Below, in pieces: positions 6,811 to 60,366 of a stretch of 64,000 nt of DNA (position 1 is its first letter; every line of letters begins with the position of its first letter). The notes beneath the pieces are model-generated. The model saw only the letters and a list, made by a program, of their open reading frames with translations, was not told the origin of the DNA and did no database searches. The translations under genes were made by a program, and so were the position numbers. This DNA is from Prorocentrum cordatum (taxonomy: Eukaryota > Sar > Dinophyceae > Prorocentrales > Prorocentraceae), in contig CAUYUJ010016479.1 in the NCBI GenBank assembly GCA_963575745.1, positions 61,001 to 125,000 of the forward strand. Reading direction: 5' to 3'.

Positions 6811-8190
6811 CTGCGCGCCGTCGAAGAAGTCGCGAAGCGGAAAAGAAGGCCGGGCCACTACGCGGACAGCGCAAAAGGGGCGAAGACAGAAAGAGGCGAA
6901 AGAGAAAGAACAAGCGGAAGAGGCGAAAGAGAAATAATAAAGACGCGAGGAGCGAGGCGAAAGAAACACGGAGGAGAGGGACGAACTCGCCGCAACTCAG
7001 GCACAGGCCACGTCGAGGACGAAGCCCCTTGCCGAGGAGCCGGAACTTGTTGTGAAGCGTCATGTCAGCCGAGGCGCATTGGGGGGGGTAGCGAAGGGGC
7101 CACGGACGCGGACCGAAAGCGCAAGCGCCGTCACATCCAACAGGCCGTCTCCAGGGCCGCGTAATCAATCCGCATGGCCGACGCCATCCAGGAGCCACAA
7201 GGGGCAGGGACACACCCTGGTGGCGACGAGGTGACAGAGCCAATGGGGCAGCCCAGCGCCGACAGTGACGTACCAAGCAAGCAGCTGGTGGGGATACTTT
7301 TTCGGTCGCGGCCGCCAGCGAAGAGGCAGGCGGCGGGCAGGGTGCCCGGGCCAACGGGCAAGCCTAATTAGCTACAAGAGTCGCACTAGCCGGCCGGCCC
7401 ACTCACAAAGCAGCCGCGAGGCTGTGGGGGAGCTGACGGCTGACGGCGGGGGGCATCCTGGGAAGCTCGGGCACGTGCAGTGGACAAAATGTCGAGGAAT
7501 TCGATGCCTGCCGTGAGGCACGACCCACACAGTGACATGACGTGTACCTGAGCAACCGCGTCCGTCATGCTGAATGGGGGCAGGTGCGAGGCCCGAGGAG
7601 CGAGTCGCCAGTGGGGCGCCAGGCTCCAAACGTCCCAACGACGTGTGCTAGCCAGGGGGGCTGAGCTGCCGAAGAACGTGGTGCGACGCAACCTGCCGGA
7701 AGCGGGTAGATGAGCCCGGGGTGACGCAGCTGCTGCGAAGGGCTGAACCACTCCGCGGCGATCTCAACGCCCGCCAGTCCACCAGGAAGTGCATGAGGGA
7801 CACCAGGCCGACTGCGAGCCGGGCCCGTGCGCAGCGGCACGGCGCCGGGCCCAGGGCGAGAGGAGAAGGCCAGGCAGGCGTGGTAAGCATCGCCAGCGAG
7901 GCAGGGGAATCCAGAGGTGCTGCGCTGGTGGTGGCGCTGCCGCCTGAAGTACGCCAGAAGGACAGAGGGACAAGCTTATCCTCAAATACACAGAGTTGGC
8001 TGTACCTCCCGGGGCACGTGTGGCGCGTGTCCAAGCAAGTGTGCAACGTTGCAATTGGGTGGGGCGACCTGGGGGAAGCTGCGCTGAAGCAGGCACGAGA
8101 GCCGACGATCACCATGATCCGACCCTGCCCGCCGCTTCCGCACTTCCCCGCAAGACCCGGGGCCGCCCTCCATCACGCACAACGTGGGCC
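6811..8190. other. No recognised gene
   Basis: About 1.4 kb between the relict leader and the 3' flank of element A. It is purine-rich on plus at 6830-6970. Open frames exist on both strands (the largest from 7721 on plus and 8115 on minus), but none has a recognisable motif or composition different from its shadow. One copy of the CTGGTGGGG motif lies at 7285-7320. Confidence 0.5.
7285..7320. repeat. Recurrent CTGGTGGGG-T-rich motif with inverted ends
   Basis: CTGGTGGGGATACTTTTT, then CGGTCGCGGCCGCCAGCG. In this copy GCTGGTGG at one end can pair with CCGCCAGC at the other (one G-U pair), so the unit could fold as a hairpin of about 38 bases. Confidence 0.6.
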
Positions 8191-8191
8191 T

Positions 8192-8631
8192 CCAGGGTCG
8201 CAGCTAACCGCCGCTGAAGGTGGGGGACCTTGCCACGGACAGCGAGGGACAAGGGCGGCCCTGGGGAGGGGGGGCAAAACCAACGGCGTCTGTCGGCACG
8301 CCTGGCGAGCCCCGGGGCCAAGGGCAGGGGACGCCCGCCTGGCCCGAGAGGGGAGAGGCGAGGGGAAGCACCTCAACGCCCCTCGACCGGGCCCCAGACC
8401 CGTGTGTCAGGGGACATGGCCATTCTCGAGGGTCCTCCAGGGTCGCAGCTAACCGCCGCTCAAGAGCAAATAGTATCGGATGATGGGTCCTTCGAACGGG
8501 GTTGACGCCGTGTGATGGTGCGGTCCTGAGTGCACCTCCTGTCATGCTGAATGCTAGTCTGCCAACGCGGAGACTGGCAACTCTAAGGGGATGGTGGGTA
8601 TTGGTCCTCCAGGGTCGCAGCTAACCGCCGC
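8192..8631. repeat. Three hairpin repeats in the 3' flank of element A
   Basis: Near-identical copies of TCCAGGGTCGCAGCTAACCG with arms GCAGC/GCCGC and loop TAACC at 8200-8214, 8445-8459 and 8617-8631. The same sequence (ACAGC arm) sits before the gamma start codon of element A at 16036-16050, tying these copies to A. The 8632-9112 interval between them and the A stop has no other feature I recognise. Confidence 0.75.
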
Positions 8632-9112
8632 AGAAGTCTGTAGTGTGACAAAACTGTGACCTCGCTAGGTCGAGCTCGCCGCCAGGCAGGCCGGGGGGGG
8701 ATGCTGTGGCCCACCTCGGGCCCCTGGCACGCGGGCCGGCTGTCGTCGTCGGACAGCAAAGTCTACGAGCCCGGGAGGCCTGCCTGCGCGAGCCAGGCGG
8801 GCCCCGCCGTGCCAGAGAGGGTGAGATGTCGGGTGCTGGCGGGGGGAGTCCCTCCGCGTCAGGCCCGAAAAGGAAGATGGTGGTCCACTTATCCAGCGTG
8901 GGCTGTCTAGCTAAGCTGCGCCGTGGGTGAGATGTGGGGGTAGCCTTCGCCCCAACGACGGAGGGTGGCCCCGGGCATTGCGGCCTGAGCCGGGCGCAGC
9001 GAGGTGAAACGAGCCCCTTCGGGGCAACGGGTGGCTGGAGGTGGTGGGAGCAGGCTTCCTTGGGCAAGTCCCTACCAAGGTCGACGTTGAGGTAGGCCGT
9101 GTCGGGAGCACG

Positions 9113-10495: not shown

Positions 10496-10498
10496 GAG

Positions 10499-16024: not shown

Positions 16025-17150
16025 CCTCCAGGGTCACAGCTAACCGCCGCTGAGAGTGATTTGGATAGCCGGGGTGCCGCGGCCCGCTGCTGGGGGGCCT
16101 CGGTGGGCGGGGCGATCGATCGATCAGCGGCCAGGAGCGGAAGGGGGAGGAGGAGGGGGAGAATGGGGGATTTTCCAGGCGGAAGGCGGCGGCGGCACAA
16201 ACCGTTGGGTCGCAAAGGTCGATGCCTAGACCTTCCACGATTGGGAAGTGGGCAGGGAGGGCGCTATGGGCTCCTGCCCACTGCATGTGAGTGTGGACGG
16301 CGGGTTCGCCGACGTTGCGCAACGCATCCGCCCAGAACACCCCCAGGGTGGTAAGGCTGTCTGCTGCTTTATTAAGGCGGCGCCTCACGGCCTGCCAGGA
16401 AAACACCCAGCCGATGCTCTCTGCCTGGGCGAGTGCGCTCTCCATTTGCTGGGCCAGGTTTAGCCTCCTGTACCTGGCTGCTCCGGCACCGTATCGGATG
16501 GCTGCGAGGTTGTCGCCGACAACCCTGGCGGCCCGTAGGGAGCCATTGAAGTGGGGGAGGAGTGCGAGGCCCGCGCGGCAGCCAGCAATCTCGGCCATCT
16601 GTGCACTGCTGCATCCGGGGAGCGCTACAATGGCAACAGCCACTATTCTGGGGGTGCCTGTCGCTGGGTCGTGGTGCCACAAGAGTGTGCCGGCGCCTGA
16701 GACCCTGGTGCGACCGTCGATCTTCCGGGCGCCGCCGTCGAAGGTGACCTCGCAGGGCCACTGGGTGCTGTCGGTGTCTGGGAAGGGGGAGCTCCGGACG
16801 GTTACTTCGTCTCCCGGTTCGAGGTCGGTGTTCGCCGTCAGCCTTGTGGTGTGCGCGCGGCACTCCCGGCAGCATGCTGAAGTCCAGCTGGCCGTGGGAT
16901 TGTTGTCAGTCCTGGGGCAGGGGAACCAGCCCCGGCCGGGCAGCATCCATCCCGCACGCATCTGGCTGGCCAGGATACTGCGAGCTTGTCTCCTGCTCGG
17001 CAGTGGCCAGTGACGACCGGGAGCCTGCGCACCTCTCCTCCTGCGCGTCGCGCGTGGCGGGTCATGTGTGGCCTGGCGGCTCCGCATATTGTCCTGTCCC
17101 GGATTGGGAGCGGGTGGCACGTGGGGCAGGTATCTTGCGCGATTGTCCAA
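15939..17150 (-). CDS. Element A RNase HI domain, end of the beta protein
   Basis: Residues 134-272 form an RNase HI. The acidic residues are in place: EVTFDGGAR (D138), AQMAEIAGCRAGLAL (E187), RVVGDNLAAIRYG (D213) and LNKAADSLTTLGV (D264). It resembles the plant/archaeal type found in LINEs, where it removes the RNA strand during reverse transcription. A Cys-rich WTSACCRECRAH precedes it. The reading upstream (RARRAGGEVRRLPV) is in another frame (16838-17611), so a frame change lies near 16900. Past residue 290 the frame runs through the hairpin repeat without a stop. Confidence 0.8.
   Translation of the reverse strand: MDNRARYLPHVPPAPNPGQDNMRSRQATHDPPRATRRRRGAQAPGRHWPLPSRRQARSILASQMRAGWMLPGRGWFPCPRTDNNPTASWTSACCRECRAHTTRLTANTDLEPGDEVTVRSSPFPDTDSTQWPCEVTFDGGARKIDGRTRVSGAGTLLWHHDPATGTPRIVAVAIVALPGCSSAQMAEIAGCRAGLALLPHFNGSLRAARVVGDNLAAIRYGAGAARYRRLNLAQQMESALAQAESIGWVFSWQAVRRRLNKAADSLTTLGVFWADALRNVGEPAVHTHMQWAGAHSALPAHFPIVEGLGIDLCDPTVCAAAAFRLENPPFSPSSSPFRSWPLIDRSPRPPRPPSSGPRHPGYPNHSQRRLAVTLEDGQTQKQSRATSSLASLRGMPPRGPPTD
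16028..16050. repeat. Hairpin repeat abutting the gamma start codon of A
   Basis: CCAGGGTC, arm ACAGC (16036-16040), loop TAACC, arm GCCGC (16046-16050). On the minus strand the repeat ends CCTGGAGG and the ATG of the gamma frame (16024-16022) follows at once. Element B has a hairpin repeat in the same place. Confidence 0.7.
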
Positions 17151-21971: not shown

Positions 21972-22036
<65 letters not shown>

Positions 22037-26186: not shown

Positions 26187-26210
26187 TCTAAGGGTGGCGT
26201 GATGAGGGAT

Positions 26211-40922: not shown

Positions 40923-41017
40923 CTAGAGTGCGGGGAGTCCAGCGGAACCGAGTAAAGGTTGGCGACATATGAGGCTGCCTGCGTGGCCAGTGAGTCTTCC
41001 AGGGCAGCTGGACTTGT

Positions 41018-41065
<48 letters not shown>

Positions 41066-41828: not shown

Positions 41829-41868
41829 CCAGGGTGGGAACCTGTCCAGGATGGCAGCGGAAGGCTGC
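41829..41868. repeat. Hairpin repeat upstream of the gamma start codon of B
   Basis: CCAGG at 41846, arm GCAGC (41854-41858), loop GGAAG, arm GCTGC (41864-41868), a fully compensated stem. A worn CCAGGGTGGG at 41829-41838 lies between it and the ATG (41825-41823), so the start codon again follows CCTGGA on minus. Confidence 0.7.
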
Positions 41869-44008: not shown

Positions 44009-44366
44009 TACTGGAGCCGGCAGCGCGACTGATCATTTCCAGGAGGAGCCCGGCAGGCAGGCCTGTGACAGTTGTGGTGGTGCCATCATCGCTGAAGTCC
44101 ACTGGGGCGCTGTCCAGGTACTGCATGATGTTGATACCGGATGGGGCTGCAATGCCCCTGCACTGGTGGGCTTCGACGAGGCGCCCCGCCGCTCTTGCGA
44201 GCCAGGGCAAGGCGATGCCGGCACGCAGTAATTGGGCGGTGGCGCCCAGCAGGGCAGCGAGGTCATCCACGTAAGTCGGATCGTCCGCCCCGGTGATGTC
44301 GGCCAGGGCGCCGATGAGAGGGTCGTATCCTAGGCACCAGAGGAGCGGGGAGGCGGTGCCTCCCAT
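43842..44366 (-). CDS. Element B reverse transcriptase, motifs B and C
   Basis: MGGTASPLLWCLGYDPL (motif B) and TYVDDLAALLG (motif C, residues 31-41; YVDD codons at 44273-44262) are intact. They sit between frame changes near 44450 (after motif A) and 44000. The catalytic pair is kept here and mutated in A. Confidence 0.72.
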   Translation of the reverse strand: MGGTASPLLWCLGYDPLIGALADITGADDPTYVDDLAALLGATAQLLRAGIALPWLARAAGRLVEAHQCRGIAAPSGINIMQYLDSAPVDFSDDGTTTTVTGLPAGLLLEMISRAAGSSIAAQCSPWTSPCMCKFNGPGPRQQPRLVETRHGLHPFRLIRRPPPVALSRRLHRI

Positions 44367-44433
44367 TCCGATAGACCGTAAGAGCTTCCTTACTCTGCTT
44401 TTGTACCTACCTTTGCAGGTGCGTGCGCTCCTG

Positions 44434-47046: not shown

Positions 47047-47295
47047 CCGGAGATGTTTTCGTTCCTACTCCAATCCAGTATGGCGGTCGCAAGTCTGCGC
47101 TGTAGGCATCTCGGGTCCAGGTGGGCTCCCACGGCGTCGTAGAGTTTCTTTCCACTGACGTCCAGGGACCGATAGCAAGAGCCCAGTCCCACTGCTCGGG
47201 CCCGCTCCTCCAGATATGGGATCCTGAGTCTATTTTTTCTTCCGTGGGCCAGGAGCCATCCCGCCCAGGCCCTCGCTTTTCCTTCGCTGGCGAGG

Positions 47296-47368
<73 letters not shown>

Positions 47369-48592
47369 GTGGCAGACGAGCGTCAGTCCTTCCGTGCAGC
47401 CCAGGAAGTTGCGCTCGGCTCCGGTCTCTTGAAGAATGTTTCTGATGCAATTCCTGGTGTCGACGAGGGTGCGGAGGAGCCATCTGTGGCTGCTGTCCCC
47501 ATTGCATAGCAAGCAGAGGGGATGTGTCTGGTAACTGCAAGGGACGATTGCCTCCAGGGACTTGGCAGGAGCCTTGGACTGGGTCCAGGGAGGGATGTGC
47601 CCGTCAGGTCTGTAAGTCCATTGCCTTTCCCAGGGACTGGGGAGCCGAGGGTGCGTGACTAGGTCCTCCGCAGGAGGGCAATTACTGACCCACAATCGGT
47701 CCCTCGGGCTGGCGACTGTGGCCGCAGAATCAATGCGGACCGCCCAGTCTGGGGGGAGGTCCCCCAGTGCAGTGCACATCGCCTGCTTTTGTGCCTGTAG
47801 GATGGTAGCTGGACATTCGCAGCATATTATGACGTGGACGTCCGGGCGGAGTCTGCGGGCGGCGTTCCACAGGAGCGGCACGGCGAAGAACTGCGCTGTC
47901 TGGGAACCCGCGAGTCCATCTAGCCCTCCGTGCTGGCTGGCTGCAGAAAGGCTGGCACCTGGGAGCCCCGCTGTGATGACGAGTAAGCTTCCAGGGTCCA
48001 GGGTTCTGAGGTGGTCGGTCCAGGGACTCAGACCGTCGTCCTCCCTCAGGAGGTCCCACACATTGGCTCCCAACCTGATGTGCGGTGGTCCTCCATCAAA
48101 GCGCGTGGCAGTGTCCCGGTCCCAACGCCTCTCCACCCGAGCAGCAGCTTCGTCGCTGAACTCGACGAACGCGGAAGATCTGAACCGAGAAGTCGCGGCG
48201 ACTTTGGCTAGGAGGTCGCCTACCGCAAGTCTCGCCAGGCCCCATTCATCGAAGAGTGATACAAGATGGAGACTAGTTCCCACAGTGGCACTCGGGCCAG
48301 GTCGGGGGTTGACTATGCGTGCCCTCGTCTGCTGGGTGAAGTCATACGTCCAGGCCTCCCCATGTCTGGGATCACTGATGGGGTGGAGCCTGAGGTGTCC
48401 CGCGATGTCCCGCGTGCCGTCGGGGGAAACGCTGGAAACGAGGCCATCCTGCTGGAGGGTCCTTAGTGTGTTGATGATCTGCGCATTGTCCAGGCCCGCG
48501 GCCTGGTACGCGGCAAGCGTCGTGTCAGCAGGTGTGACTGGGGAGAGGCCAGTTCGCCCGTCCCTATGCCGCTCCCAAACCTGCTGAAGCAT
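46925..48592 (-). CDS. Element B Dnmt3-like methyltransferase, catalytic site lost
   Basis: Residues 108-360. Motif I HLVSLFDEWGLARLAVGDLL, then SSAFVEFSDEAAARVERRW (motif II). Motif IV reads ITAGLPGASLSAAS, so the Pro-Pro-Cys of A is Leu-Pro-Gly and the nucleophilic Cys is missing. Motif VIII is TVASPRDRLWVSNCPP. A conserved AMCTALGDLPPDWAVRIDS matches AICTAMGDLNLDWAVKMSA in A. A C-terminal SYQTHPLCLL block follows. The frame then enters the GA microsatellite; real homology continues in the neighbouring frame (46872-47540) with EERARAVGLGSCYRSLD. Fold kept, catalysis not. Confidence 0.72.
47296..47364. repeat. (CT)n/(GA)n microsatellite at the methyltransferase-endonuclease junction of B
   Basis: About 69 bases of CT with one TTT interruption. 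On minus it reads Glu-Arg repeats in two of the three frames. Same place in the protein as the tract at 21952-22028 in A. Confidence 0.95.
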
Positions 48593-50174
48593 GTCGGCAG
48601 GCTGGGGGGCGGCCGTGGGCTCTTCTGGTAGGAAGACAGTGGGTCGGGGCCGCGGCCTGCGGATCCGTGCGCCCTCCGCACTCGCCGGTCTGGACGCCCG
48701 CCTTGTGGTACCTCTTCCTGCGACCCCGGTGAGAGGGCCCTCCCCATGGGCGGGAGCGTTCCCAAAGGTCGACCAGAGTTCTTGGGTGGGGAGATCTGCT
48801 GTCTGGTCGGGTGGACCTTTCCCTGTCTGTGTTGCCCGCAGCCCTGCGTCGTGTCACACCGCGTAGTGTGGTCCTGCGCGTGCCGTCATTCCTTCCTCTG
48901 GGTGGCCGGTGGGTCGGACTCCCACGGGCCCTGTCAGCCGCGGTAGTCTGGGGCTGGGTGCTGGGCGCTACAGGTCGCGGTCCGGTCGAACTTCGACGAC
49001 GGGCACGTCTGAATTGCCCGCCGTCGGCTGCGCTCACGGCAGTGCTGGCCGGGGCATGTGCAGGTCTGGGAGTGCCGGCGCGCCGGGCGGTGCTACCGGT
49101 ACTGCGTAGGTTCCTTGGAGAGGCCTCCACCGTCTCGCTCAGGAGATGGTCCCAATCATCCGAGAAAGGCGGGCCCGCACCCGCGCGCAGGATGGTGCGG
49201 GGCATGGCTGGCGTCAGGCTCTGAAAGGGGGCGTCTGGTGTCGACACACTGTCCGAGCGTGAGGCCGGACCGCCTGCGAGTTGCCTCAACTGAGCGCAGG
49301 CCGCGTCTGCAGTCAGAGCTGCTTGGCGTGAGTTTATCCTCCTGCCGGCGGGGTTGCGCGTGCCCGGAGGTGGGTGGGTAGTCCAGTAAGCGCCGAAGGC
49401 GTCTGGGATTCGCGTGGCGAGTCCAAGCTCTTGGTGAAGGTCTCTAACAGTTTTGTCCAGCTGGGGTATCGCTGCCGCCCATGCGATCACACTGAGCGCT
49501 TGGTTCCATTCGGCTTCGGAGGGGGGGGGGCCTGTGCCGTCTGAGGCATGTATCTGCGCCAGTCTGAGCGCACGCGCCATGACTTCATATTCCCGTCTCC
49601 AGTCCGCGCCCATGCAAGGGGGGAGCTCAGGCCCAGCTCGCGGTGTGTCTCCTCGCCCCAGGGGGTCGTTGCAAGTGCTAGGCGCCGTGCCCGGCGGCGG
49701 TCTCCTGCTCTGGGCTGTCGCCGGATCCGTGGGGACCCGTGGAGGTGCGTCCTCGTTGCACGCCGCGCCCCCCGCGTCTGTGGTGCTGGCAGCCGGGGCC
49801 GTACCCCGAGCCTCCTCTGTACTGTCGAGAGTCGCGGCTCCACACCCTCCGGTCGATCGCAGCTCAGCGTTGGTGTTTGCTTCGTCCTGAGAGATCCGTG
49901 GGCTCCCAGGGGTGTTCACGCCGATGTGTCTCTCGGGAGGTTCCGCGGGGTCAGGACTATCTCGTCTCACAGCTTCAGCACCGCTGCAGGCTGTGGAGGG
50001 GACTTCGCCTGCGCCCAGGCTCGGCGTGGCGGCGCAAACCGGGGCGTGTGAACGTGCTGGCCCCTCTCTGGGTGTCGCGGGGATCGCAGAGGTCGTCCGG
50101 GGTGGGAGTTGGACGGTGCTGCCAGCCCGGGTAGCGGCCTCGTCCGATACTCCTTCGCCGACCAGTCTGGCCAC
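48564..50174 (-). CDS. Element B segment upstream of the methyltransferase, unknown
   Basis: A 536-codon Ala/Pro/Thr-rich frame. Conserved with A between about residues 170 and 330: DPLGRGDTPRAGPELPP, VIAWAAAIPQLDKTVRDL, THPPPGTRNPAGRRINSR and AALTADAACAQL. The rest is variable and may be disordered. It could be the start of the beta protein or the end of alpha. No domain is recognised. Confidence 0.5.
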   Translation of the reverse strand: MARLVGEGVSDEAATRAGSTVQLPPRTTSAIPATPREGPARSHAPVCAATPSLGAGEVPSTACSGAEAVRRDSPDPAEPPERHIGVNTPGSPRISQDEANTNAELRSTGGCGAATLDSTEEARGTAPAASTTDAGGAACNEDAPPRVPTDPATAQSRRPPPGTAPSTCNDPLGRGDTPRAGPELPPCMGADWRREYEVMARALRLAQIHASDGTGPPPSEAEWNQALSVIAWAAAIPQLDKTVRDLHQELGLATRIPDAFGAYWTTHPPPGTRNPAGRRINSRQAALTADAACAQLRQLAGGPASRSDSVSTPDAPFQSLTPAMPRTILRAGAGPPFSDDWDHLLSETVEASPRNLRSTGSTARRAGTPRPAHAPASTAVSAADGGQFRRARRRSSTGPRPVAPSTQPQTTAADRARGSPTHRPPRGRNDGTRRTTLRGVTRRRAAGNTDRERSTRPDSRSPHPRTLVDLWERSRPWGGPSHRGRRKRYHKAGVQTGECGGRTDPQAAAPTHCLPTRRAHGRPPACRHASAGLGAA

Positions 50175-50661
50175 GGAGGGTGGTGCCGTACTTTGCTCTA
50201 GTGGTGCCGTCTGCCGTCGAGGTTGCGCTCCCGGTGCGGTGAGTGTCGGGTTGTCGTTGGCCTCTCCGCTGGGGTTTGCGTTAAGTCTGTGGTGTCACCG
50301 ACGTGGGGAGCCCGGGGCTTGCAGGTGCGGCTGGCGGTCTAGGGCCTGCCGCAGTAGGTGGTCTGGCGTCACTTGCTTGCATACCTGCCACGTCCGCCTC
50401 ATTGTTCGCCCGACTGCGGCTTCTGCGCTGGCTCGTACCTGGGTTGTCCGTGGGTCTGTCCCCCGCTCCGGCGGTTCTGGGGGTCTGTGAGGTACCTCTC
50501 CTTCCCCGGGTGACTCTCCCCGGGTCATGGCGCTGTCGCTCCTCCCAGTGTAGGTTGGACAGCCTGTTGATCAGGGCGTCCAGGGCATTCGAGACACCTT
50601 CCGGGACTGGGAGCGCCGTGGTGGCGTCTACGTCTGCACCTCTGGATCCAGGGACCTCGAG

Positions 50662-52400
50662 CTAGGGCTGGTGGGCTGAGTAGGTGCCGCCAGGCTCAGG
50701 CGCGAGCCATTGGGTGAAAGGGAGCTGTCTCGTAACTTCTTCTCGGATCCCGAGCTCTCGTATGAGTTGCCAAACGTGGTCTCGGTCCAGGCTCCCCGGG
50801 CTTGCTAGTTGCAGGATCCAGATGGCGGCGAACATGTCCCAGTTGTATCTCTGCATGGGCCGGCCCTCGAGTTGTCTGCGGATTTCGAGGGCAATCCGGC
50901 GTTGGACGCCGCGCGCCATGTCGTGCACTGCTTGCTCCGGGACCACGGCAGCGTATCTACCCAGCATCCCCCGCGCGATGCGGACCGCATCTTCATCGGT
51001 TCTTACCAGTTCGGCTGGGGGCGGCCTGCACGCACGCACTAGGACCTCGGCGAGCTCCGGAAAGTGAGTGGGTCTGGCGGGTCCAGGGAGTGGGTTGAGC
51101 GAAGCCGAGGTACGTCTAGGAAGTGGCTGTTGGGAGGGAGCGTGGACCCCCAGCCCCACTGAAGCGGGAGTTGGTGTGGCTGCGGGAGCGGAGTCCAGGC
51201 GTGCAACGTGGATGGGGCCCGCGGCAAGCTGAAGTTTGAGTCTCGCTTGTGGTCTGTCGGCACCCCTCGTGGCTGCCCTAATGTCCGCGTCCGCAGGGAG
51301 GAGCACCGTCACCCAGGTGGGGACCGAAGTGAAAAGAAACCCTGCCTCTCCGCTAGTGGTGACCTCAACGGCCCCGCCAGCCGCTATTGCGGCGAGTAAG
51401 TATTCTCCAGGCTGTAGGACGGTTTCGTAATCCCGTAGGCCACTCCCCTGCGACATGCTAGGTACCGTATTGGGCGCGCTCCTGCTCATCGCCCTGGCGT
51501 TCTCTCGGAGCCAGTCCCCCGTGATGATAGGTGGGGCAGCTCTGGTGTTGGCTGGGTGTGAGGTACCGTCCGGGCCATCCGGGAGTGGCCAGAGTCGAGT
51601 TAGTAGCTGGGCGTTCGCTGAGCCGACCGATGCAGAGAAGAGCTGTAGCGTACTGTGTCCAGGGAGCCAAGCGTCAGGGCGCATGCTGCGTGGGCGAATT
51701 TCTCCCAGCTGCGTCCCGTGCCTGTCAAGAGTGGTGATCTCGAGGACTTGGGGCTGAATGGCGCGTCTGGGGGCCTGTCGTACAGAGATGCTGGCCAGCA
51801 CGTCCACATGCTCTTGCAGTTCCCTGGATGTCGCAGCCGCTCTGTGCATGGGGTCCCTGCTAGGTGTGGCGGGGAAGATCCTGACCGTCTGGGCTCCGAT
51901 CACAATACAAGTGGTGCCCACAAAGGCTGCTGCCATGGCGTCGGCCGCAGCTAGGCGTATGCGAACTTGCGTCATGTATCTGTAGTCAGAGACGTCTGGG
52001 AACCAGGCGTATACGGTGGAAACCTGTTCGACTGTGCCAGGACCAGTCGTGGCCCCTACGGCTTGCAGGACGTCCTCAGGCCGTGTTTGTCCCATGTCAG
52101 CGAGATCCCATCTTAGGTGGAAGCCTTCCTCGGGGTCAGAGAGGCGCACAAATGAGGGTCCTCCATCCCACGGTCCTTCCAGGAGGACGCGGCGCGGTCC
52201 TAGTGCCATGGAGGAGGAGGCGTCCCCAAAGACCCGCGGAAGCTCGTCTCGGAGGTGCCTCAAGACGGGGGCGGCAATCCGTTCTGGAGTGGAGATCAGG
52301 AGAAGCCCCGTCCCGCAAATTCCGACTCTGTGTCCCATAGCTCCAGCTGTTGTGGAGGCTACAGAGTGGGCTATGCAGATCGCTGGGGGGAACTGGGATG
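50662..52400 (-). CDS. Element B alpha protein, conserved block of unknown function
   Basis: TPERIAAPVLRHLRDELP, VLLEGPWDGGPSFVRLSDPE, RRAIQPQVLEITTLDRHGTQ, LRDYETVLQPGEYLLAAIAA, MQRYNWDMFAAIWILQLASP and LIRELGIREEVTRQLPFTQW match A in order, across what are two frames in A. A TAG at 50662-50664 ends it; the same phase then continues LEVPGSRGADVD, matching MEAPGSRGAETD in A, so this is a single nonsense change. Function unknown. Confidence 0.62.
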
Positions 52401-52981
52401 TGTACAGAGTCACTTGTCTCGTGTGTTCTCCAGACGCATGCCGTCTGGTAGGCCAGCATGGTGGTTTGAGCTGCCGCCTGCAGATTATCCAGGGGGGCAC
52501 GTACGCCGTCCTCACAGCTCGTGGGTCTCGAAGCTCTGCAGCGGAGGACGTGGTGGAAGAGCATCTCGAGTCCATGGCATCTCAGGAGCTCGTCCCGGGG
52601 GAGCTGCACTCTCGTGGTGACCCAGTCGGCTGCGATCATCCCGTTGTGGGATCGCCATAGTTCATCCCTCCACCTCATGATCTGCGCAACGACGCCGTCA
52701 TTGCCGCTCTCAAGGGTTAGGATGTGTAGCGCATCAGAGGTGTCCCCATTCCTTCCACCCCAGTGCACAACTATTGACGGGGGTAGGATCGCGCGCAGTG
52801 TCCTGCCCTCTAGGTCGAACTGAGCGGCGAAGAGTTGCTGCATTGGTGGGCTGGGCTTGCCTGTTCGGTAGAGGTGTCCAATCGGCACGAGATGGGTAAT
52901 CTTGCTGGCGGCTCGGTATCCCCACTGCGCGTTTGCCAGGGCTGCGAGCTCGACCGGATCCGGTCCTCCAGGTGACGGCAC
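52400..52981 (-). CDS. Element B alpha protein segment, unknown
   Basis: MPSPGGPDPVELAALANAQW, ILPPSIVVHWGGRNGDTSDA and HHVLRCRASRPTS match A (26211-27467). A frame change near 52400 leads to the next segment and one near 52980 separates it from the RING-containing frame. Confidence 0.55.
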
Positions 52982-54342
52982 TCCCTCGGTGGCCAGGGCG
53001 ACGAGACAGCATGGCTGCCCGCGGCGGTAGCTGCCGTCAGGGCGGCATCCATGTGTTGAGCTAGGGCATCTACCACGAGGATTGTTGGGGCGGCGCTCCC
53101 CTGAGGCTGGTTCCTGCGCTCCGAGACTACTGCTTTGATCTGCTCCCAGGCGTCTGGGCCTGCGAGGGCAAAGGTGACTCCAGTCTCGTCCGCTACACGT
53201 TCGCCGAGGTAGGTGCTTCTGGATATTACCAGATCGGCTGCAATGTCTCGGACGGCCGCTGTGAGCAGCCCTACCGGGAACCGCCCAGGTCCCCTCCTCA
53301 TGGGTTCATCCTCTGGGGGGTTCCGTCCCAGTAGCAGTGCCCATCTTCCGAAAGTGATTCGCGGGGCTTGCCGTATCCTATCTGTCCTGTTGGTGGGACC
53401 AGGGGGTCGCTGCGGAGGCGAGGTCCCAGGTCCCTGCGTGCTGTTGTGGGCGTCGTCGGAGTCCATGCCGCTTCCACCGTTCCCGCCGTCAGGTGGGGTC
53501 CCATCCACTTCCATCGGGTCATGACGTGCCTCCTGCGCGGTTCTCCTCTCCGCAACGTGCGCGTGGATGCTGCGCATGTCTGAAAGTGTGACGTATGTGT
53601 GGGGACGTCGGATGGAGAGTGTTTGTGCTCTGAGGCAGTCCAGATCTGGGGCCAGGTGCCTGAAGGCATCGGCTAACTCTTGCAGGCTCAGGAAGGGCTG
53701 CAGTGGGAGTAGGGTCCCGTCGCGGAGCTGTAGGAGGTCTGGAGGTACCGCAATGTCCGCGGCGTCGGCATCTCGTGGTCGGTCTGGAATCCTTACGGAG
53801 ACGCTACCCCTATCGACGGAGCGGCATATGGGACAGTTCACTGGGAAGCATCTTCCGTGGGACAGGGCCTGCGCTGGCTGGCTAATCCTCCACTGTCTTA
53901 GGCATTCGGCGTGATACAGGTGGCCGCATGGTACCAGGGCTTCCGCGAAACCTAGGATGTCCTCGCTGCAGATCATGCATCGAGGGGTTCCTACCTCCCG
54001 GTCCCAGGGAGGAACTTCCACGGCGTCCATGCTTTCCGGAGGGAGCCTGACACTGTCCCCAGGAGGGTGGCTGAGTTGGGATAAGCCATCCCCCAGGCTC
54101 TCGATGAGGGCTCTGGCGGACATGCTGGCGTCGAGGTGCGTCAGACTAGCTCCTTCACTGAGGTGGGATATGAGGACCTGGATTTGTGAGTTGCTGAGGT
54201 CGGAGTATGGAGCTAGATCGGCATCCGGGAAGTCCCTCCGAAGGCAGGCCACGAGGTCTTCCGGCGTGTGCATCTCATTCCTGGTCATCCAGCGGTAGAG
54301 AACGTCGTAGGGTCGGGAGTCCAGGGCCCGCACAGTCAGCAC
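52810..54342 (-). CDS. Element B alpha protein with RING-H2 finger
   Basis: A 510-codon frame. RING-H2 at residues 122-173: CMIC, then PCGHLYHAECLRQW, then NCPIC, with C-x2-C-x13-C-x1-H-x2-H-x2-C-x22-C-x2-C, identical in spacing to A. Upstream VRALDSRPYDVLYRWMTRNE and downstream LSDMRSIHAHV, TFGRWALLLGRNPPEDE, AVRDIAADLVISRS and ALAGPDAWEQIKAVV all have counterparts in A. The finger suggests ubiquitin-ligase activity, perhaps acting on host chromatin or silencing factors; that is inference. Homology ends near residue 455 at a frame change. Confidence 0.75.
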   Translation of the reverse strand: MLTVRALDSRPYDVLYRWMTRNEMHTPEDLVACLRRDFPDADLAPYSDLSNSQIQVLISHLSEGASLTHLDASMSARALIESLGDGLSQLSHPPGDSVRLPPESMDAVEVPPWDREVGTPRCMICSEDILGFAEALVPCGHLYHAECLRQWRISQPAQALSHGRCFPVNCPICRSVDRGSVSVRIPDRPRDADAADIAVPPDLLQLRDGTLLPLQPFLSLQELADAFRHLAPDLDCLRAQTLSIRRPHTYVTLSDMRSIHAHVAERRTAQEARHDPMEVDGTPPDGGNGGSGMDSDDAHNSTQGPGTSPPQRPPGPTNRTDRIRQAPRITFGRWALLLGRNPPEDEPMRRGPGRFPVGLLTAAVRDIAADLVISRSTYLGERVADETGVTFALAGPDAWEQIKAVVSERRNQPQGSAAPTILVVDALAQHMDAALTAATAAGSHAVSSPWPPRECRHLEDRIRSSSQPWQTRSGDTEPPARLPISCRLDTSTEQASPAHQCSNSSPLSST

Positions 54343-54391
54343 CGGCTTGAGGAGGGGGGAGTAGTGTGGGGCCAGGCAGAGCCACAGGGCT

Positions 54392-54946
54392 CTAGATCCA
54401 GGGACCCGGTTGTCGATCTACCCTGTGTTCCAGGAGCATGCTTTGTGCGAGGCACTGTGCCTGGTCCCCATTGACAGAGGTCCTTTCTCCGGGGGCCGGC
54501 ATGGTACCTCTGCCTGCCTCCTCTTCATCCCGCTGCCTGGCGTCGAGAGTGCGTATGAGTCTGTCCAGGAGCCCTTCTCTGGTACTGCCAGCCGGTAACC
54601 TGCCCTGGGGAGTAGCGAAGCTTGCCCGGTTGAGCATCTGTCTTATATCCGCGTGCCATGGCGTGGTTGTGCTTGCGGCTTCCACAGTTTCGGTTTCTAC
54701 TCCAGGGCGTGGTCTGCCTTCGCTCGCGGGCCCGCTGTTCCTTGGGTTTGACCTCGGTCCGGTACTGGCCATTTGCGCCCGAGTCCTCGTTCCAGCCTCC
54801 ACCGCCTGCCGATCTCCAGACAGGATGGCAGTCTGAAGGAAGCCGCGTGCATCCAGGTGCAGCATCATTCGCTCCTGGAGCTGGGGTGCGATGTAGCCGC
54901 CTACCTCGGGGGCCTCGAGCGAGGCACCAGCTGCCCTGGACGCCAT
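54392..54946 (-). CDS. Element B alpha protein segment, unknown
   Basis: VGGYIAPQLQERMMLHLDA matches GGYINPELQEQTMSWLDP in A. The homologous phase extends upstream to about 55090, where 54525-58052 changes frame. The remainder is Ser/Thr/Arg-rich, ending in PGPWI near a conserved PGSWIARAIWL-like point of A. Confidence 0.5.
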   Translation of the reverse strand: MASRAAGASLEAPEVGGYIAPQLQERMMLHLDARGFLQTAILSGDRQAVEAGTRTRAQMASTGPRSNPRNSGPASEGRPRPGVETETVEAASTTTPWHADIRQMLNRASFATPQGRLPAGSTREGLLDRLIRTLDARQRDEEEAGRGTMPAPGERTSVNGDQAQCLAQSMLLEHRVDRQPGPWI

Positions 54947-57900
54947 ATCTGCTTCGGATGCGAGTGCTAACTGGGCATCCCTGTAGGAGCTGACGCCTCG
55001 CGTTCTCCACCAGGCTGCTGCATGTTCGATAATAGCGGTGCTGAGGTTGCTGCTCCTGAAGGCTAGTTCGAGGACATTTCGACCTCTGTTGGTGGATGTG
55101 CCCCATATAAAAAGGGACCAGGATACTGCTCCAACGCATGCCAGGGGTGGCGGAGTTGCTTGCGACCCTCTCCCTGATTCCCCTCACCTCCTCGATGAAT
55201 GCGTCTCGCTGCGACCGCTCCGCCTGAGAAAGCCCCTCCTCCAGGACTGGGGGGGGTCTTTGGGGAGGCCTGGCAGCTACCCCTTCTAAGCCCGCGTGGC
55301 TGTCCCTGCCGCTGCGGGGGTTGTCCACGTCCATGGGGGCGTGCCCTTCGCTAGGGCGCCTAGAACGCTCTTGGTCCTGCCCCCTGCTGTCTGCCTCCAG
55401 TCGTCTGAGGACGGCGTCCGTGACGAGGTTTCCCAGGGGGGTACCCTGCCCAATTTGGGGATGTATTGGGCGCCAGTCAGTCCGTGCGGCTGCTTGCAGC
55501 GCCCTTCTCATTGCTTCTGCTGTTTCAGAGTGGGGGCTGTCTCTATTGTGCCACCAGCGTCTGCTGAGATCGGTGTGATCACGTGCGTCGCTTATAGCGC
55601 GGTCAAGGTGGTCCCCGCCGATGGTGTATCTTAGCCAGCAGAGGTCGTCCAGGTGCACCCGAGTGTTCGGTCCAATGGGAACGGATGTAGTTGTTCTGCT
55701 GGGTAGTGGGGGCCTCCGGTATGTTTGTGGGTGAGTGTCTGTGCCGCCGTGGTAGAGAGAGGGAGGGAACCACCCATCGAGCCGACCATCGGGGTGGGAC
55801 CTGATGATGTGCCGAATCTCCTGGCAGGCGTTTAAGGCCCAGGAGCCTGGCGCTGAGCAACGTAAAGCCAGCGAGATCGACGCTGTGCGGAGTTGCCAAT
55901 CGCTCCCGACCTCTTCGAGGCCTCCTGAGTCTTCGTATGACCAGATTTCAGGTAGGCCTGCAGCGTGGGCCACCATATGCCTCCAGGCTCCCAGGAGTTC
56001 ACCCACAAGCCACGTTGGGGTGAAGTCGGAGGGGCCAGGCGGTGTGGGGGAGTACAGGTGCTCGGCGATTGGGGCGTATCGCCCGCCCGCTTTGACGAGC
56101 TGAATCAGCAGAGTCCCGCCCAGGAGGTCGAGGGCGTGCCTGTTGGGTGGCTGGCCAAGGTCTGCTCCTGGGTGACTCTGAGGTGAGGCGTCTGCTCGCG
56201 GCTCCTCTGGGTTGTAACTCCAAGGGATGGCCAGTCTGTGGCAAGTGATGCAGGTTTGTCCTGTGGGATCTCGGAGCATCCAGGTGCCACAGAAATTACA
56301 TCTCTCTCCTGGGCAGAAAAAGTCCCGCAGTCGTAGTCTGTGAGCTGTGGTGGACCATGGCCAAGCGTAGTCGCTACTGTCGCTTCCTTGGATGGAGACT
56401 CCAGGGATGCCCGCGGAGCTGGCGGGCATCCCCGAGAGGGCGGCCTCTACCCATGGGACTGGGCCTCTACCTGCTTGTCGTCTCGAGTGCACGTCACTTC
56501 CCATACGCTCGAGGTTCCCTCTCGTGATGGCCCACTGCCTGACGTCCCCGTGGTCCGGAAAGTGGACTACGTTTTGCCTGCGCTCGTGAATCAGGACTCG
56601 ATGGGCGCAACCCATGACCTCGTCATCCATGGGGTCCTGCGTCCCGTCTGCTCGGTTGGGGCCACCGATGTGCAGAGGGGCAGAGTCCTCAGGGGATCTG
56701 GTGGGCATGAGCATCCTATCTGTGTCATATCCGCTCGGCAGCTCCATTCCTATGTCGCAGTAGTGTGCAGCTGCGGCCATGGCAACGTACTCGAGCCGTG
56801 CTAGTTGCCTCCCAGTCACTGAGGGGCTGGCTGCGTCCATTCTTTCACTCCTTATACCGGGATCATGAGTAATGCTCGCAAAGCGGAAGGCGAGGACCTG
56901 GACTGGGTCCGGTTGAACGCCTCCCAGACGCCCTTCATAGTCTCCTCCAGTGATGGACCATACCAGCCAGGTGTGGTCCAGAATAGCGAGAATTGGGGCT
57001 GAAGTGGCGACCTCGGAGTAACGTCCAGGGAGGGCTCGTTCTACGGGAGCCGTGCGCATGGGGCTGTGAGCTCGCATGCCTGGGTGGCCTGGGCGGTGCC
57101 TCCTCCACGCGTGGTGTATGAGGAGCTCCAGGTTGCTGGTCTCCCGAGATGTTCTCGGCGCTCCGCGTTTGGGGACCTCGCGCCATGGCCCCTCAGTGTG
57201 CACAAGGTGCCGGCGTAGGGCCCTCATGGTGCCCCCCCTGCCAGAGATCCTGGCGTCTGCAACGCGCGGGCCACAAATGGGTCCGTCCGCCTCCCGACTG
57301 GCCGCCCAGTCAGCATTCGCGTGCCCAGTGGCGTCCAGCCACCGTGCGTGGAGGTCCGCAGCGCTTTGCCCCCTGCTCCTCAGCGCTTGGCTGTGGTCGT
57401 CAAGGTCTGAGGGGGTGGGCGGGTTCTCCATTCGCAGATCATCTTCCAGGGCGAGATCTGGAGATGGGTAGGAGGGGGGGTCCGTGAGGACGGGACCCCT
57501 GTGTGCCGCGTGGCTGACCTCGAGGGGAGCGCCGCTGTTCGTCCAAAGGAGGGGCCCCCGCACTCTACCCTGTGACGAGTAGTCAGGCCCACGACGGCAT
57601 TCACCGAGCGCAGTGTTAAGAAACTCGAGCCCAGGGGGCAGGTCGGCATGGGAGAAGTCGGGGGAAGAGCTGGTGGGCGAGGGAGGAAAGGCACGAGGAG
57701 GTCCTTCCGCCGGGATCGGAGACCTTGCCCGATCGATCGGATCGACATGAGGAGCGGCCCCGACCGCGGGATCGAAAGCAAACCTGGGGACGCTGGGCGA
57801 ACGAGGATGCCCGTCAGGCCCTCCAACGGCCAACAAACCCATGGCAAGACAGAGGCGATCGATCATCCCTGTGGAGGAGGGCGCCTCCCTGCGATCACTG

Positions 57901-58052
57901 GAGCCGGGGCCCCCCGACTCTCGCACCCCTCCCTCAGGCGCGAGGCGAGGCCCGCGGCCTGCTCCTGGGAGGCACCGGGAGGCCGCGGTATCAGCGCGCA
58001 TACTGAAGGCGCTGTCCCGTCCCGCCTCTGTGGGGGCAGGGTCACAGGTCAT
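54525..58052 (-). CDS. Element B alpha protein, N-terminal part with zinc ribbon
   Basis: The longest open frame of the window, 1175 codons; reliable to about residue 985 (near 55090). A disordered N-terminus is followed by HTWLVWSITGGDYEGRLGG (about 355), HFPDHGDVRQWAITRGN (about 500) and the zinc ribbon RCNFCGTWML...TCITCH (about 582-602, C-x2-C-x12-C-x2-C). GGRYAPIAEHLYSP and WSSILVPFYMGH follow. All match A. The Met at 58052 lies 68 bases after the last hairpin repeat of the leader and is a reasonable but unproved start. No enzyme motif is seen. Confidence 0.62.
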   Translation of the reverse strand: MTCDPAPTEAGRDSAFSMRADTAASRCLPGAGRGPRLAPEGGVRESGGPGSSDRREAPSSTGMIDRLCLAMGLLAVGGPDGHPRSPSVPRFAFDPAVGAAPHVDPIDRARSPIPAEGPPRAFPPSPTSSSPDFSHADLPPGLEFLNTALGECRRGPDYSSQGRVRGPLLWTNSGAPLEVSHAAHRGPVLTDPPSYPSPDLALEDDLRMENPPTPSDLDDHSQALRSRGQSAADLHARWLDATGHANADWAASREADGPICGPRVADARISGRGGTMRALRRHLVHTEGPWREVPKRGAPRTSRETSNLELLIHHAWRRHRPGHPGMRAHSPMRTAPVERALPGRYSEVATSAPILAILDHTWLVWSITGGDYEGRLGGVQPDPVQVLAFRFASITHDPGIRSERMDAASPSVTGRQLARLEYVAMAAAAHYCDIGMELPSGYDTDRMLMPTRSPEDSAPLHIGGPNRADGTQDPMDDEVMGCAHRVLIHERRQNVVHFPDHGDVRQWAITRGNLERMGSDVHSRRQAGRGPVPWVEAALSGMPASSAGIPGVSIQGSDSSDYAWPWSTTAHRLRLRDFFCPGERCNFCGTWMLRDPTGQTCITCHRLAIPWSYNPEEPRADASPQSHPGADLGQPPNRHALDLLGGTLLIQLVKAGGRYAPIAEHLYSPTPPGPSDFTPTWLVGELLGAWRHMVAHAAGLPEIWSYEDSGGLEEVGSDWQLRTASISLALRCSAPGSWALNACQEIRHIIRSHPDGRLDGWFPPSLYHGGTDTHPQTYRRPPLPSRTTTSVPIGPNTRVHLDDLCWLRYTIGGDHLDRAISDARDHTDLSRRWWHNRDSPHSETAEAMRRALQAAARTDWRPIHPQIGQGTPLGNLVTDAVLRRLEADSRGQDQERSRRPSEGHAPMDVDNPRSGRDSHAGLEGVAARPPQRPPPVLEEGLSQAERSQRDAFIEEVRGIRERVASNSATPGMRWSSILVPFYMGHIHQQRSKCPRTSLQEQQPQHRYYRTCSSLVENARRQLLQGCPVSTRIRSRYGVQGSWCLARGPRGRRLHRTPAPGANDAAPGCTRLPSDCHPVWRSAGGGGWNEDSGANGQYRTEVKPKEQRARERRQTTPWSRNRNCGSRKHNHAMARGYKTDAQPGKLRYSPGQVTGWQYQRRAPGQTHTHSRRQAAG

Positions 58053-58119
58053 GTCTTCCCTCTGCCAACGATCCCTGGGTTGAACGCCGCGCGCCTCTCT
58101 CTGCGTGCCGTCGTCCGGT

Positions 58120-59858
58120 CCAGGGTAGCGACGGAAGGTCGCGCGTTCTGTGTGTATCGCGGGGGGGAGAGCCTCATCCCCTCCTTGAGTGTGGTGCCTA
58201 GCGCTCTCGTCTCCAGTGGGTCGACTGGAGGCGGCAGCGCTGGGGTGCGCATGACCACCGCGCCCCGGCCAACCCCCGTGGGGGTAGGGTCCCTGTTCCT
58301 AGCTCCCCCGTCCGTCTGTTCCCTGGGTCGCAAGCCTTGGGCGTCATCCAGCCTTCCGCCATCCGCTCCAGGGTAGCGACGGAAGGTCGCACGGTTTGGG
58401 TGTATATCAGGGATGTCTGCATCCCCCCTTCTCCAACATTATGCCTGCCGCTCTCGGGTGCGCGGGGGCGGTCAACTGCTGCGTCGGTGGCGGGATGCCC
58501 TTCACGGGTGGAAGGAGGGGCTCCGCCGCTTAGCTCGCCAGCGGGGACGGCCTCGCCCAGCGCGGGCACGCCCAGGGGGGGGGGTCGGCGGTGGGTTGGC
58601 GCGAGCCTTGACGGGGCGTGCAGGGGCTGCAGGCAGCGGCTTGCCAGCGCCTGTTGCCTATGCCCATCGTGAGTGTCCCCCGAGGATATCAGCTCCCTGT
58701 TCACGACATCCGAGTCGACCTGCCCCCTGGGAAGACCGCGGCGGATGTTCGTCTGTTCCTCGTCGGTTGTCCTAAGCGCGACAGGATCCGCGGGAGAGTT
58801 TTGTGCCGAAACGGGGCCCTCTCCCCCCGTGGCCCCGGCAACGCCTGGGGTCGTTTCACTCGGCCCGACAGCGCCTGGAGCGAGGGAAGTTGGACGCCCT
58901 GCAGTGGGCATGGGAGCGGCGGAGGTGGGAGAGGCGGTTGGGCTAGACAGGAGGGCTTCGTGCCCGAGGTCATCGCGTCCAGGGGAGCGGCGGAAGGTCG
59001 CAGCGTCGGGTTGTCCTCTGCCAACGTTGCCGCGACCATCCTCCGCGGGGGTCAGCTCCCTGGTGCATTCTACCCCTACACACCGTTCCCTGGGCTGAAC
59101 ATCGCGGGCGTTCCTCTGCCCGTCGCGGTCCGCTCCAGGGTAGCGACGGAAGGTCGCACGTTCTGTGTGAATTGTGGGATAGCCGCACTACCCCCTCCTT
59201 CAATGCCACGCCTGCCGCTGTCAGGCTCCTGAAGGCGGCCTGGAGTGGTGTCAGAGGCGAGGTGCGCGCCGCAACCTGAGGACCTGTCTTCCATGCTCGA
59301 AACGTTGCGGGGAGCAGCCTCACTCGGGGCGGTCGCATCCAGAGAGGGGGGCACGGCGGAGCGAGGGCAAGAGCCCCTAGGATGCGTGACGGGGCCGAGG
59401 CGACGCGACGGCCCGTCTCCCCCCGCTTCGCCTTCAGGGGCGCCTGCTGGGGGTGTCGGGTCCATACAGTCCCCATCCACGCCATCGAGGTCTCTGCGTC
59501 GGGAGCCGAGGGCAACTCCCAGCTCGTCGCGAGACTGTCCGAGAGGAGGGGGGTTCGTGGGAGAATAAACTGCTTCAGGAGTGGGCCCGTCGGCCCCTGT
59601 GAGCCTAGTATCGCCATGGGCGGTCCCACTGTGCCCAGCGCTGCCTGGAGAAAAGGAGATTGGGCGTCCAGCCGTGGGCAGAGGAATAGTGGGGGTAAGG
59701 GAAGGGTAGCTGGGCGGGAGGGCCTCATGTCTGACAATACCTCCAGGATGGCGACGGAAGGTCGCGCTTTCAGTGTGAAACGGAGGGCTGAACGTATCAA
59801 CCCCGTCAACCGCTGCGCATCCGTCGATCTCAAGTCCAGGGTAGCGACGGAAGGTCGC
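58120..59858. repeat. Six hairpin repeats of the GGAAG class in the leader of B
   Basis: Stems at 58128-58142, 58376-58390, 59143-59157, 59751-59765 and 59844-59858 (all GCGAC/GTCGC), and 58987-59001 (GCGGC/GTCGC, one G-T pair). Each is preceded by CCAGG and most are followed by a CGTTCTGTGTGTAT-like tail and a C-rich segment, so the full unit is about 60-80 bases. All have the same orientation. Confidence 0.85.
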
Positions 59859-60143
59859 ACGTTCGGTGTGTATCACAGTGCTGAGGGGATCAGCCCCTCC
59901 CTCCGATTGGCTGGGGATGATTTGTCCTCGCGTGCCCGAAGCATCGGCCGAAGCGCTCCCATTCCAGGGAACAGAGAGCGACGCTTGCCCCGGCGGGATG
60001 GTGTCCTGAGATCCAGGGCGAGTCTGTCCAAAGTCATTCGGCCCAGTGGTCCCGAGGCCGACATCGGATGATGCGGCTCTTTCCCCCGCAGGGATGACAG
60101 GATCGTCGCCGATCGATCGCAAGCTATCAGGCCGACCATCCAT
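59076..60143 (-). CDS. Element B 5' open frame, Pro/Ser/Gly-rich
   Basis: From the ATG at 60143 (MDGRPDSLRSIGDD) the frame is open for about 355 codons. It is disordered in character and includes two hairpin repeats read as HTERATFRRYPG and HTESATFRRHPG. It is the first sizeable frame after the SL-like sequence. There is no match in A and other frames are also open, so it may be a leader without protein product. Confidence 0.35.
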   Translation of the reverse strand: MDGRPDSLRSIGDDPVIPAGERAASSDVGLGTTGPNDFGQTRPGSQDTIPPGQASLSVPWNGSASADASGTRGQIIPSQSEGGADPLSTVIHTERATFRRYPGLEIDGCAAVDGVDTFSPPFHTESATFRRHPGGIVRHEALPPSYPSLTPTIPLPTAGRPISFSPGSAGHSGTAHGDTRLTGADGPTPEAVYSPTNPPPLGQSRDELGVALGSRRRDLDGVDGDCMDPTPPAGAPEGEAGGDGPSRRLGPVTHPRGSCPRSAVPPSLDATAPSEAAPRNVSSMEDRSSGCGAHLASDTTPGRLQEPDSGRRGIEGGGSAAIPQFTQNVRPSVATLERTATGRGTPAMFSPGNGV

Positions 60144-60330
60144 GAGGCAGCGGTCCTGACCCGATCTGAGCCACGGGCCGCTGAGCCCGTCTGCGCGGCG
60201 GGCTGGCGTTCGCGATGGCTGGCGCGCCCGGTGCCGGAGGGGGTCCAGGGCCGCGGGCCCCCGGCGCAGCGTCTGGGCGCCCCCTTGAGCGGCGGGAGAC
60301 TGCCCCGGAGAGGGCAGGCCCACCAGACGG

Positions 60331-60366
60331 CTTGAGCCAGAGGCTACGGAACTGGTGGGGATACGC
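60331..60366 (-). other. SL-like sequence at the 5' edge of element B, with flanking motif
   Basis: Plus CTTGAGCCAGAGGCTACGG (60331-60349) is, on minus, CCGTAGCC then TCT then GGCTCAAG: both ends of the dinoflagellate spliced leader with a core two bases short. CTGGTGGGGATACGCG follows on plus at 60352, the same motif that abuts the relict leader at 6768. It is in the right place and orientation to mark the 5' end of a trans-spliced element transcript that was reverse-transcribed. Confidence 0.5.

Follow-up and report, generated by a model that had tools for sequence, protein, structure and literature searches.

Two head-to-tail copies of a probable giant three-ORF LINE with helicase, RING-H2 and methyltransferase-like parts in a dinoflagellate-like genome

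The stretch analysed here (hereafter the window) is a 64,000-nucleotide piece of Prorocentrum cordatum DNA, positions 61001-125000 of contig C15630 in a 4.13-Gb genome of 21,875 contigs; its GC content, in 2-kb steps, is 60-72%. On its minus strand lie two collinear copies, head to tail, of what is very probably a family of giant (27 kb) non-long terminal repeat (non-LTR) retrotransposons with three open reading frames (ORFs) in a dinoflagellate-like genome: copy 2 (60350-33386) and copy 1 (about 32283-7300). Read 5' to 3', the element consists of a spliced-leader-like end; ORF1, with a zinc ribbon, a RING-H2 finger, a conserved block of unknown nature and a C5-methyltransferase-like block; ORF2, with an APE-type endonuclease, a reverse transcriptase (RT) and an RNase H; ORF3, a Sen1/Upf1-type superfamily 1 (SF1) helicase region; and a simple tail. 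The features, in window positions, are as follows.

60352-60364, minus strand: probable 5' target-site duplication GTATCCCCACCAG; recurrent target sequence lies before it (60365-60381)
60331-60350, minus strand: 5' end of copy 2, TCCGTAGCC..CTGGCTCAAG, similar to the dinoflagellate spliced leader; also in C248, a contig carrying a close relative of copy 2
58053-60330, minus strand: 5' leader of copy 2; contains five hairpin boxes (stem-CTTCC-stem-NANCCTGGA), along with internal repeats
47390-58052, minus strand: ORF1 region of copy 2 (N-terminus of unknown nature, zinc ribbon, RING-H2, conserved block, C5-methyltransferase-like block), which would make ~3,550 codons if ancestrally one frame
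53821-53982, minus strand: RING-H2 finger of copy 2 (PF13639, 5.7e-7; residues 146-199 of the ORF at 52810-54417)
50665-52383, minus strand: conserved ORF1 block, 57-60% identical to its copy 1 counterpart (25197-26927)
47531-48265, minus strand: C5-methyltransferase-like block of copy 2, catalytic Cys replaced (GLPGAS); the copy 1 block at 22200-22949 has PPC
47296-47365, minus strand: (GA)n run at the ORF1/ORF2 junction of copy 2, found at the same place in copy 1 (21976-22032)
41997-47240 (start approximate), minus strand: ORF2 region of copy 2 (APE-type endonuclease, RT with YVDD, RNase H)
41845-41868, minus strand: hairpin box just 5' of the ORF3 ATG of copy 2, loop CTTCC; the homologous copy 1 box (16027-16050) has loop GGTTA
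34922-41825, minus strand: ORF3 region of copy 2 (Cys-rich motifs, Sen1/Upf1-type SF1 helicase at 38.0-40.2 kb)
33386-34921, minus strand: 3' untranslated region of copy 2, with hairpin boxes and a sharp 3' end
33334-33385, minus strand: variable T-rich 3' tail of copy 2
33322-33333, minus strand: probable 3' target-site duplication GTATCCCACCAG
8678-32283, minus strand: coding part of copy 1, older, more decayed and collinear
7298-8677, minus strand: 3' untranslated region of copy 1, with three GGTTA hairpin boxes, ending probably near 7298, before GTATCCCCACCAG (7285-7297)

The original prediction of two head-to-tail collinear copies was borne out by ORF-against-ORF BLASTP and a frameshift-tolerant codon alignment, which paired 32283->8678 with 58058->34421, i.e. 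~23.6 kb of coding sequence in each. The limits it had proposed, 8190 and 60349, held nearly exactly at the 5' end (60350) and failed on the left, where copy 1 continues past 8190 and probably ends near 7300. Over 7,251 gap-free codons the copies are 47.8% identical in residues and diverge by 0.42, 0.34 and 0.62 at codon positions 1, 2 and 3, a coding signature somewhat favoured by an alignment that maximised protein similarity. From this divergence pattern and identity it follows that both descend from an ancestor with long coding regions and were kept under selection after they split. Both have also decayed, since the same alignment places 36 frameshifts and 20 stops in copy 1 and 15 frameshifts and 12 stops in copy 2, some of them in gapped stretches.

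The Pfam scan covered 30 ORFs of the window. Besides the RING-H2 finger, it found AAA_11 (1.5e-20) and AAA_12 (9.1e-18) in the copy 2 helicase, both families being present in copy 1 as well, and RVT_3 (PF13456, 7.5e-5) for the RNase H of copy 2. The closest PDB match of the helicase was Sen1 (1.3e-17), with Upf1 chains next (~5e-13), in agreement with the Upf1-like helicase first read from the letters, as the RING match is with the RING-H2 finger; Viral_helicase1 scored just 0.051, below the Pfam cut-off, and the helicase was not recognised as the RNA-virus type. A homologue search with the helicase gave 14 proteins of 26-40% identity, each of which has general SF1 helicase domains, and in two other genomic copies open frames of 2,320 and 2,331 aa surround it. 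For the endonuclease of copy 2, Exo_endo_phos_2 came at 2.6e-5, and RVT_1 was seen weakly in copy 1 alone (0.0013), both below cut-off. Five relatives of the endonuclease-RT (EEP-RT) region found elsewhere (P0001-P0005) are 29-41% identical to it; PF03372 is above cut-off in P0001, P0002, P0003 and P0005, and P0002 combines EEP with RVT_1 (9.6e-6, below cut-off).

Inspection by eye added the RT motifs YVDD and FCDQNKAF in copy 2, the endonuclease blocks ETHW, GDV and SDH and the helicase blocks DEAG and TIDSSQGGE in both copies, and, in the codon alignment, a copy 1 RING-H2 at ~28.3-28.5 kb with its ligand residues kept. Copy 1 has YVDN in place of YVDD and has lost the Walker A lysine, where copy 2 has GPPETGKT. 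The element shows an EEP endonuclease upstream of its RT, the RT itself, no long terminal repeats and a variable simple 3' tail, all of them features of long interspersed nuclear elements (LINEs). As to terminal repeats, no self-match above 100 bp links both ends of copy 2, where the only similarities, of 33-39 bases, are the hairpin boxes. The conserved ORF1 block gave no relative at E<=0.001 among 8,000 candidates scored.

Relatives of ORF3 are also found outside the two copies. A helicase-only unit related to ORF3, with most pieces 31-67% identical, lies at 54015-61231 of contig C15630 (window -6985 to 231) in the same orientation and starts near the ORF3 start; further pieces are present at window 3313-3543 (C-terminal) and at 31460-33262 of the contig. 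Other RT families of the same genome (loci L001-L008) have long open frames, from 834 to 1,347 aa, around the RT.

For the methyltransferase-like block, comparison of profiles with hhalign gave P = 0.02 against E. coli Dcm alone and P = 0.00042, with the PC and RER regions in register, against a five-sequence C5-methyltransferase profile made of Dcm, three phage proteins with a methyltransferase annotation and one Dcm-similar phage stretch annotated as hypothetical; the conserved ORF1 block, used as a control against the same profile, gave P = 0.84. The PC cysteine is kept in copy 1 (PPC); among the seven copy-2-like sequences read at this motif (copy 2, C248 and L036-L040) it is kept in L038 only. 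The methyltransferase of the original prediction thus survives as a C5-methyltransferase likeness, and an intact catalytic Cys is missing from six of these seven. Judged from its sequence, the block is probably a C5-methyltransferase relative often devoid of the catalytic residue.

Do these parts travel together? The genome searches scored the best candidates only, and their counts include the window's own pair: 81 places were scored of 3,329 candidates for the helicase, 69 of 7,023 for the ORF1 block, 69 of 231,383 for the methyltransferase-like block (a number probably inflated by the GA run), 52 of 3,485 for the EEP-RT and 81 of 5,057 for the RING region. Co-location was counted for four blocks (ORF1 block, methyltransferase-like, RT and helicase; the RING region was excluded) after dropping second pieces of one place (1 helicase, 6 methyltransferase, 2 RT), a pair being called right when in the correct order, on one strand and within 20 kb. 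The ORF1 block and the helicase share 31 contigs, with 26 right pairs, 25 of them spaced by 12,319-12,912 bp and one by 7,516 bp (1 on opposite strands, 4 other). The ORF1 block goes with the methyltransferase-like block on 32 contigs (30 right, 2,628-3,826 bp; 1 opposite strand, 1 other) and with the RT on 25 (23 right, 5,223-5,818 bp; 1 opposite strand, 1 other). All 20 contigs shared by methyltransferase and RT have right pairs, at 1,634-1,789 bp. The helicase is rightly placed relative to the methyltransferase on 26 of 29 shared contigs (8,651-14,237 bp; 3 other) and relative to the RT on 21 of 23 (6,153-12,467 bp, 16 of them at 7,237-7,360 bp; 2 other). By chance, ~0.02 right pairs are expected. 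All four blocks occur together on seven contigs. The domains are thus joined in other copies within the window's own genome, as an element, rather than a chance neighbourhood, had been predicted to show. The listed places are almost one per contig among the best-scored candidates; because this scoring left copy 1 itself unlisted, diverged head-to-tail neighbours elsewhere could have been missed.

A close relative of copy 2, C248 (read to 478500), shares 96.2% identity with it over 17.5 kb, and the match stops at the 5' end of the element. It spans the 5' end, ORF1 and RT, then RNase H and ORF3, the breaks being a 478-bp length difference and a 4-kb low-complexity insert of C248. At window 42862, copy 2 is without ~480 bp that C248 has between RT and RNase H; copy 1, too, carries additional sequence at this point.

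Both ends of the element are sharp. A 5'-end query matched 39 other places, 33 of which begin within a 7-base span (query 616-622, window ~60381), and their 5' flanks are unlike that of the window. A 3'-end query also matched 39 others, once 13 second pieces had been set aside, and 32 of them end at query 1064-1065 (window 33386). Same-strand 5' and 3' ends are paired on one contig 11 times: six pairs measure 27,096-27,417 bp, a length that takes in ~30 bp of recurrent 5' target sequence, two measure 31.5-31.6 kb (C248 among them, with its 4-kb insert), one 19 kb, and two lie 57 and 67 kb apart. Two of the six pairs of 27,096-27,417 bp, those on C3950 and C15140, contain the four searched blocks as well.

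Copy 2 starts with TCCGTAGCCTCTGGCTCAAG, preceded by GTATCCCCACCAG, and this start resembles the dinoflagellate spliced leader. The 3' tails differ among the three copies read (copy 2, C3950 and C15140); beyond the tail comes (G/CT)TATCCC(C)ACCAG, then dissimilar flanks. The end repeat was read completely at both ends in copy 2 alone, its two versions differing by one C, and partly in C15140 and in C3950 (a CTTAT variant at both ends, the 5' repeat being read just that far). In L002, the locus of another RT family, a near-empty site (3242-3290, ~350 bp past the open frame) has both target halves adjoining without an element, and its right half matches the 3' flank of C3950. Taken with the end repeats, this site suggests site-preferring, target-primed insertion, and duplication of the target site by the element is likely, from the few copies sampled. 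The finding of the near-empty site and the CTTAT at both ends of C3950 led us to abandon two other explanations of the conserved bases at the ends, namely a HeT-A-like 5' tag ahead of the spliced-leader-like sequence and 13-bp terminal repeats owned by the element.

The preferred target is itself a recurrent sequence. Rfam gave no match in the window at gathering scores, and one chance-level match by the L002 site. On the minus strand of C15630 at 132484-130177, the two target halves flank a ~2.3 kb stretch whose 3' end matches the 3' end of copy 1 (CGCGACCGAAAAA); this stretch may be a truncated relative or a non-autonomous one.

Selection on the cargo was estimated from the ratio of nonsynonymous to synonymous substitution rates (dN/dS) between copy 2 and C248 in 24 blocks, as point estimates from few changes per block. 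The overall ratio was 0.47, with 0.34 for the RT, 0.22, 0.25 and 0.50 for helicase parts A, B and C, 0.36 for the RING region, 0.42 for the conserved ORF1 block and 0.33 for the methyltransferase-like block. Most cargo blocks are therefore under purifying selection about as strong as that on the RT, which agrees with the earlier proposal that the cargo was selected and not picked up by chance. Neutral decay after insertion is counted in these ratios, hence constraint while the element was active was probably stronger.

A short hairpin recurs along the element. A perfect 5-bp hairpin lies just upstream of 13 of the 140 minus-strand CCTGGA sites, against 3% of random positions; at the exact spacing, over the whole contig, 11 of 222 minus-strand sites and 1 of 125 plus-strand sites qualify, the minus-strand ones all lying inside the two elements. 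The loop is CTTCC in seven boxes of copy 2 and GGTTA in four boxes of copy 1; C248 has CTTCC in four boxes and CATCC in the ORF3 box, so the concerted loop change is imperfect. The box may be an RNA signal that evolves with its lineage. A third loop type, CGTTA, is seen in minus-strand hairpins of the left flank (window 2079-4953), near 388-bp tandem repeats (320-1769).

Several observations weigh against the giant-element reading or parts of it. The RT and endonuclease of the window copies both stay below Pfam cut-offs, and PDB sequence searches with the RT and EEP-RT ORFs gave no match. Nothing significant came of Pfam and PDB profile searches with the methyltransferase-like block either, its AlphaFold model has a pLDDT of 35 and no usable fold, and its hhalign probability against the five-sequence profile is just 34%. 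Two of the 24 blocks have dN/dS above 1, namely ORF1 N-terminal c (1.13) and ORF3 37.1-37.8 kb (1.25), the latter in a chosen frame with 5 and 4 stops, perhaps the wrong one. The ORF boundaries derive from copies that have decayed; the six 27.1-27.4 kb lengths come from end positions, the DNA in between being unread; readings of the end repeats come from few copies, and a complete one of the 5' repeat from no more than copy 2 and C248, the latter unread at its 3' end; and the L002 site departs from the target pattern by 2 bases in the left half and 4 in the right. Lastly, the helicase-only unit adjoins the window on the left.

This unit speaks for an alternative in which an ORF1 unit, a LINE and a helicase unit are separately mobile, have a common target and frequently insert head to tail; the hairpin box at the ORF2/ORF3 junction points the same way. 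Internal spacing is constant, however, the 96% identity to C248 runs from the 5' end through ORF1, RT, RNase H and ORF3, and six end-to-end pairs are of one length, while the helicase-only unit may be a 5'-truncated copy; we consider this three-unit scheme unlikely. Still less credit can be given to a tandem segmental duplication of a LINE with neighbouring host genes, where the cargo would not belong to the element: the window copies are indeed adjacent, in the same orientation and ~25.5 kb apart, and PMC2488372 describes tandem arrays as common for highly expressed dinoflagellate genes, but dozens of contigs show this order with this spacing, the other matches have different 5' flanks, and in six copies the sharp ends are separated by 27.1-27.4 kb. 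The size and cargo would also suit the capture of an RT by a large DNA virus or Polinton-like element, the least probable reading of all: no capsid, PolB, packaging ATPase or integrase family is among the Pfam matches of the 30 window ORFs scanned, a viral contig scan with the EEP-RT ORF (sensitive to close relatives only) found no relative, and the tails are LINE-like.

If the copies are indeed those of a giant LINE, its cycle could be as follows. The ORF2 protein would nick the preferred target at ...TATCCCCACCAG and then prime reverse transcription from the 3' tail, insertion leaving a 12-13 bp target duplication. The element RNA would be trans-spliced, so that the 5' end of the element would be the spliced leader, and the hairpin boxes, with loops changing largely together within a lineage, would be RNA signals for element proteins. 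The ORF3 helicase would aid reverse transcription of a 27-kb GC-rich RNA, or counter host Upf1-like factors, and the ORF1 proteins (RING-H2, methyltransferase-like) would act on host surveillance or on the new DNA. A bolder proposal, which we put forward tentatively as a little less probable than its opposite, is that this is the longest known LINE lineage, 27 kb long, spliced-leader-capped and target-specific, with its own Upf1/Sen1-type helicase, RING ligase and methyltransferase-derived protein, whose repeated RNA hairpins, their loop changing nearly in concert per lineage, serve as a self-recognition code by which element proteins can copy an RNA of this length and insert it.

If real, a 27-kb family with several copies running from end to end would mean that target-primed reverse transcription can complete very long RNAs, for which an element-encoded SF1B-like helicase is a candidate reason. 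It would also be a second dinoflagellate LINE with a methyltransferase-like part, and would suggest that a retroelement can take the host spliced leader as its own 5' end. The element would also offer a defined target sequence for testing the reverse-transcription, helicase and spliced-leader ideas.

LINEs are usually compact, of a few kb, and their reverse transcription often stops early. The present element is far longer and more cargo-laden than typical ones, and its single cargo types already have precedents. The combination of this size, three large ORFs, a Sen1/Upf1-type helicase and a spliced-leader-like 5' end was not met among the open-licence papers surveyed by title and abstract opening, a result that says little about whether such an element is already in print. 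Sequence-preferring insertion or head-to-tail clusters are known from the site-specific LINEs R1, TRAS and SART and from the telomeric HeT-A/TART, all much shorter and with other targets; the likeness lies in site preference or clustering, the target of the giant element being a recurrent sequence. Terminons, the giant Penelope-like elements of rotifers, share giant size, extra ORFs and head-to-tail arrays with it, but are described in PMC6431247 as telomeric and as having a Penelope-type RT, whereas the giant element has an APE-type endonuclease, no GIY-YIG match among the Pfam results for the 30 window ORFs and a preferred internal target. The same source reports ubiquitination-linked domains in the giant LTR element Burro. 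For the helicase, the precedent is in insect TRAS/Jockey LINEs, which also carry an SF1 helicase; theirs is RNA-virus-derived according to PMC6338049, whereas that of the giant element is Sen1/Upf1-like and sits in a large region of its own. Also close is SymbioLINE-Dnmt of Symbiodinium, the precedent for methyltransferase cargo in LINEs and, according to PMC5890265, a dinoflagellate LINE with a C5-methyltransferase in ORF1 upstream of the endonuclease-RT ORF; the order of parts in the giant element fits this, its methyltransferase being a profile-based likeness, much more diverged and often without the Cys. The passages of PMC5890265 considered name no helicase, RING or third ORF for SymbioLINE-Dnmt, the word 'helicase' being absent from the main text, and it is by these parts that the giant element differs from it.

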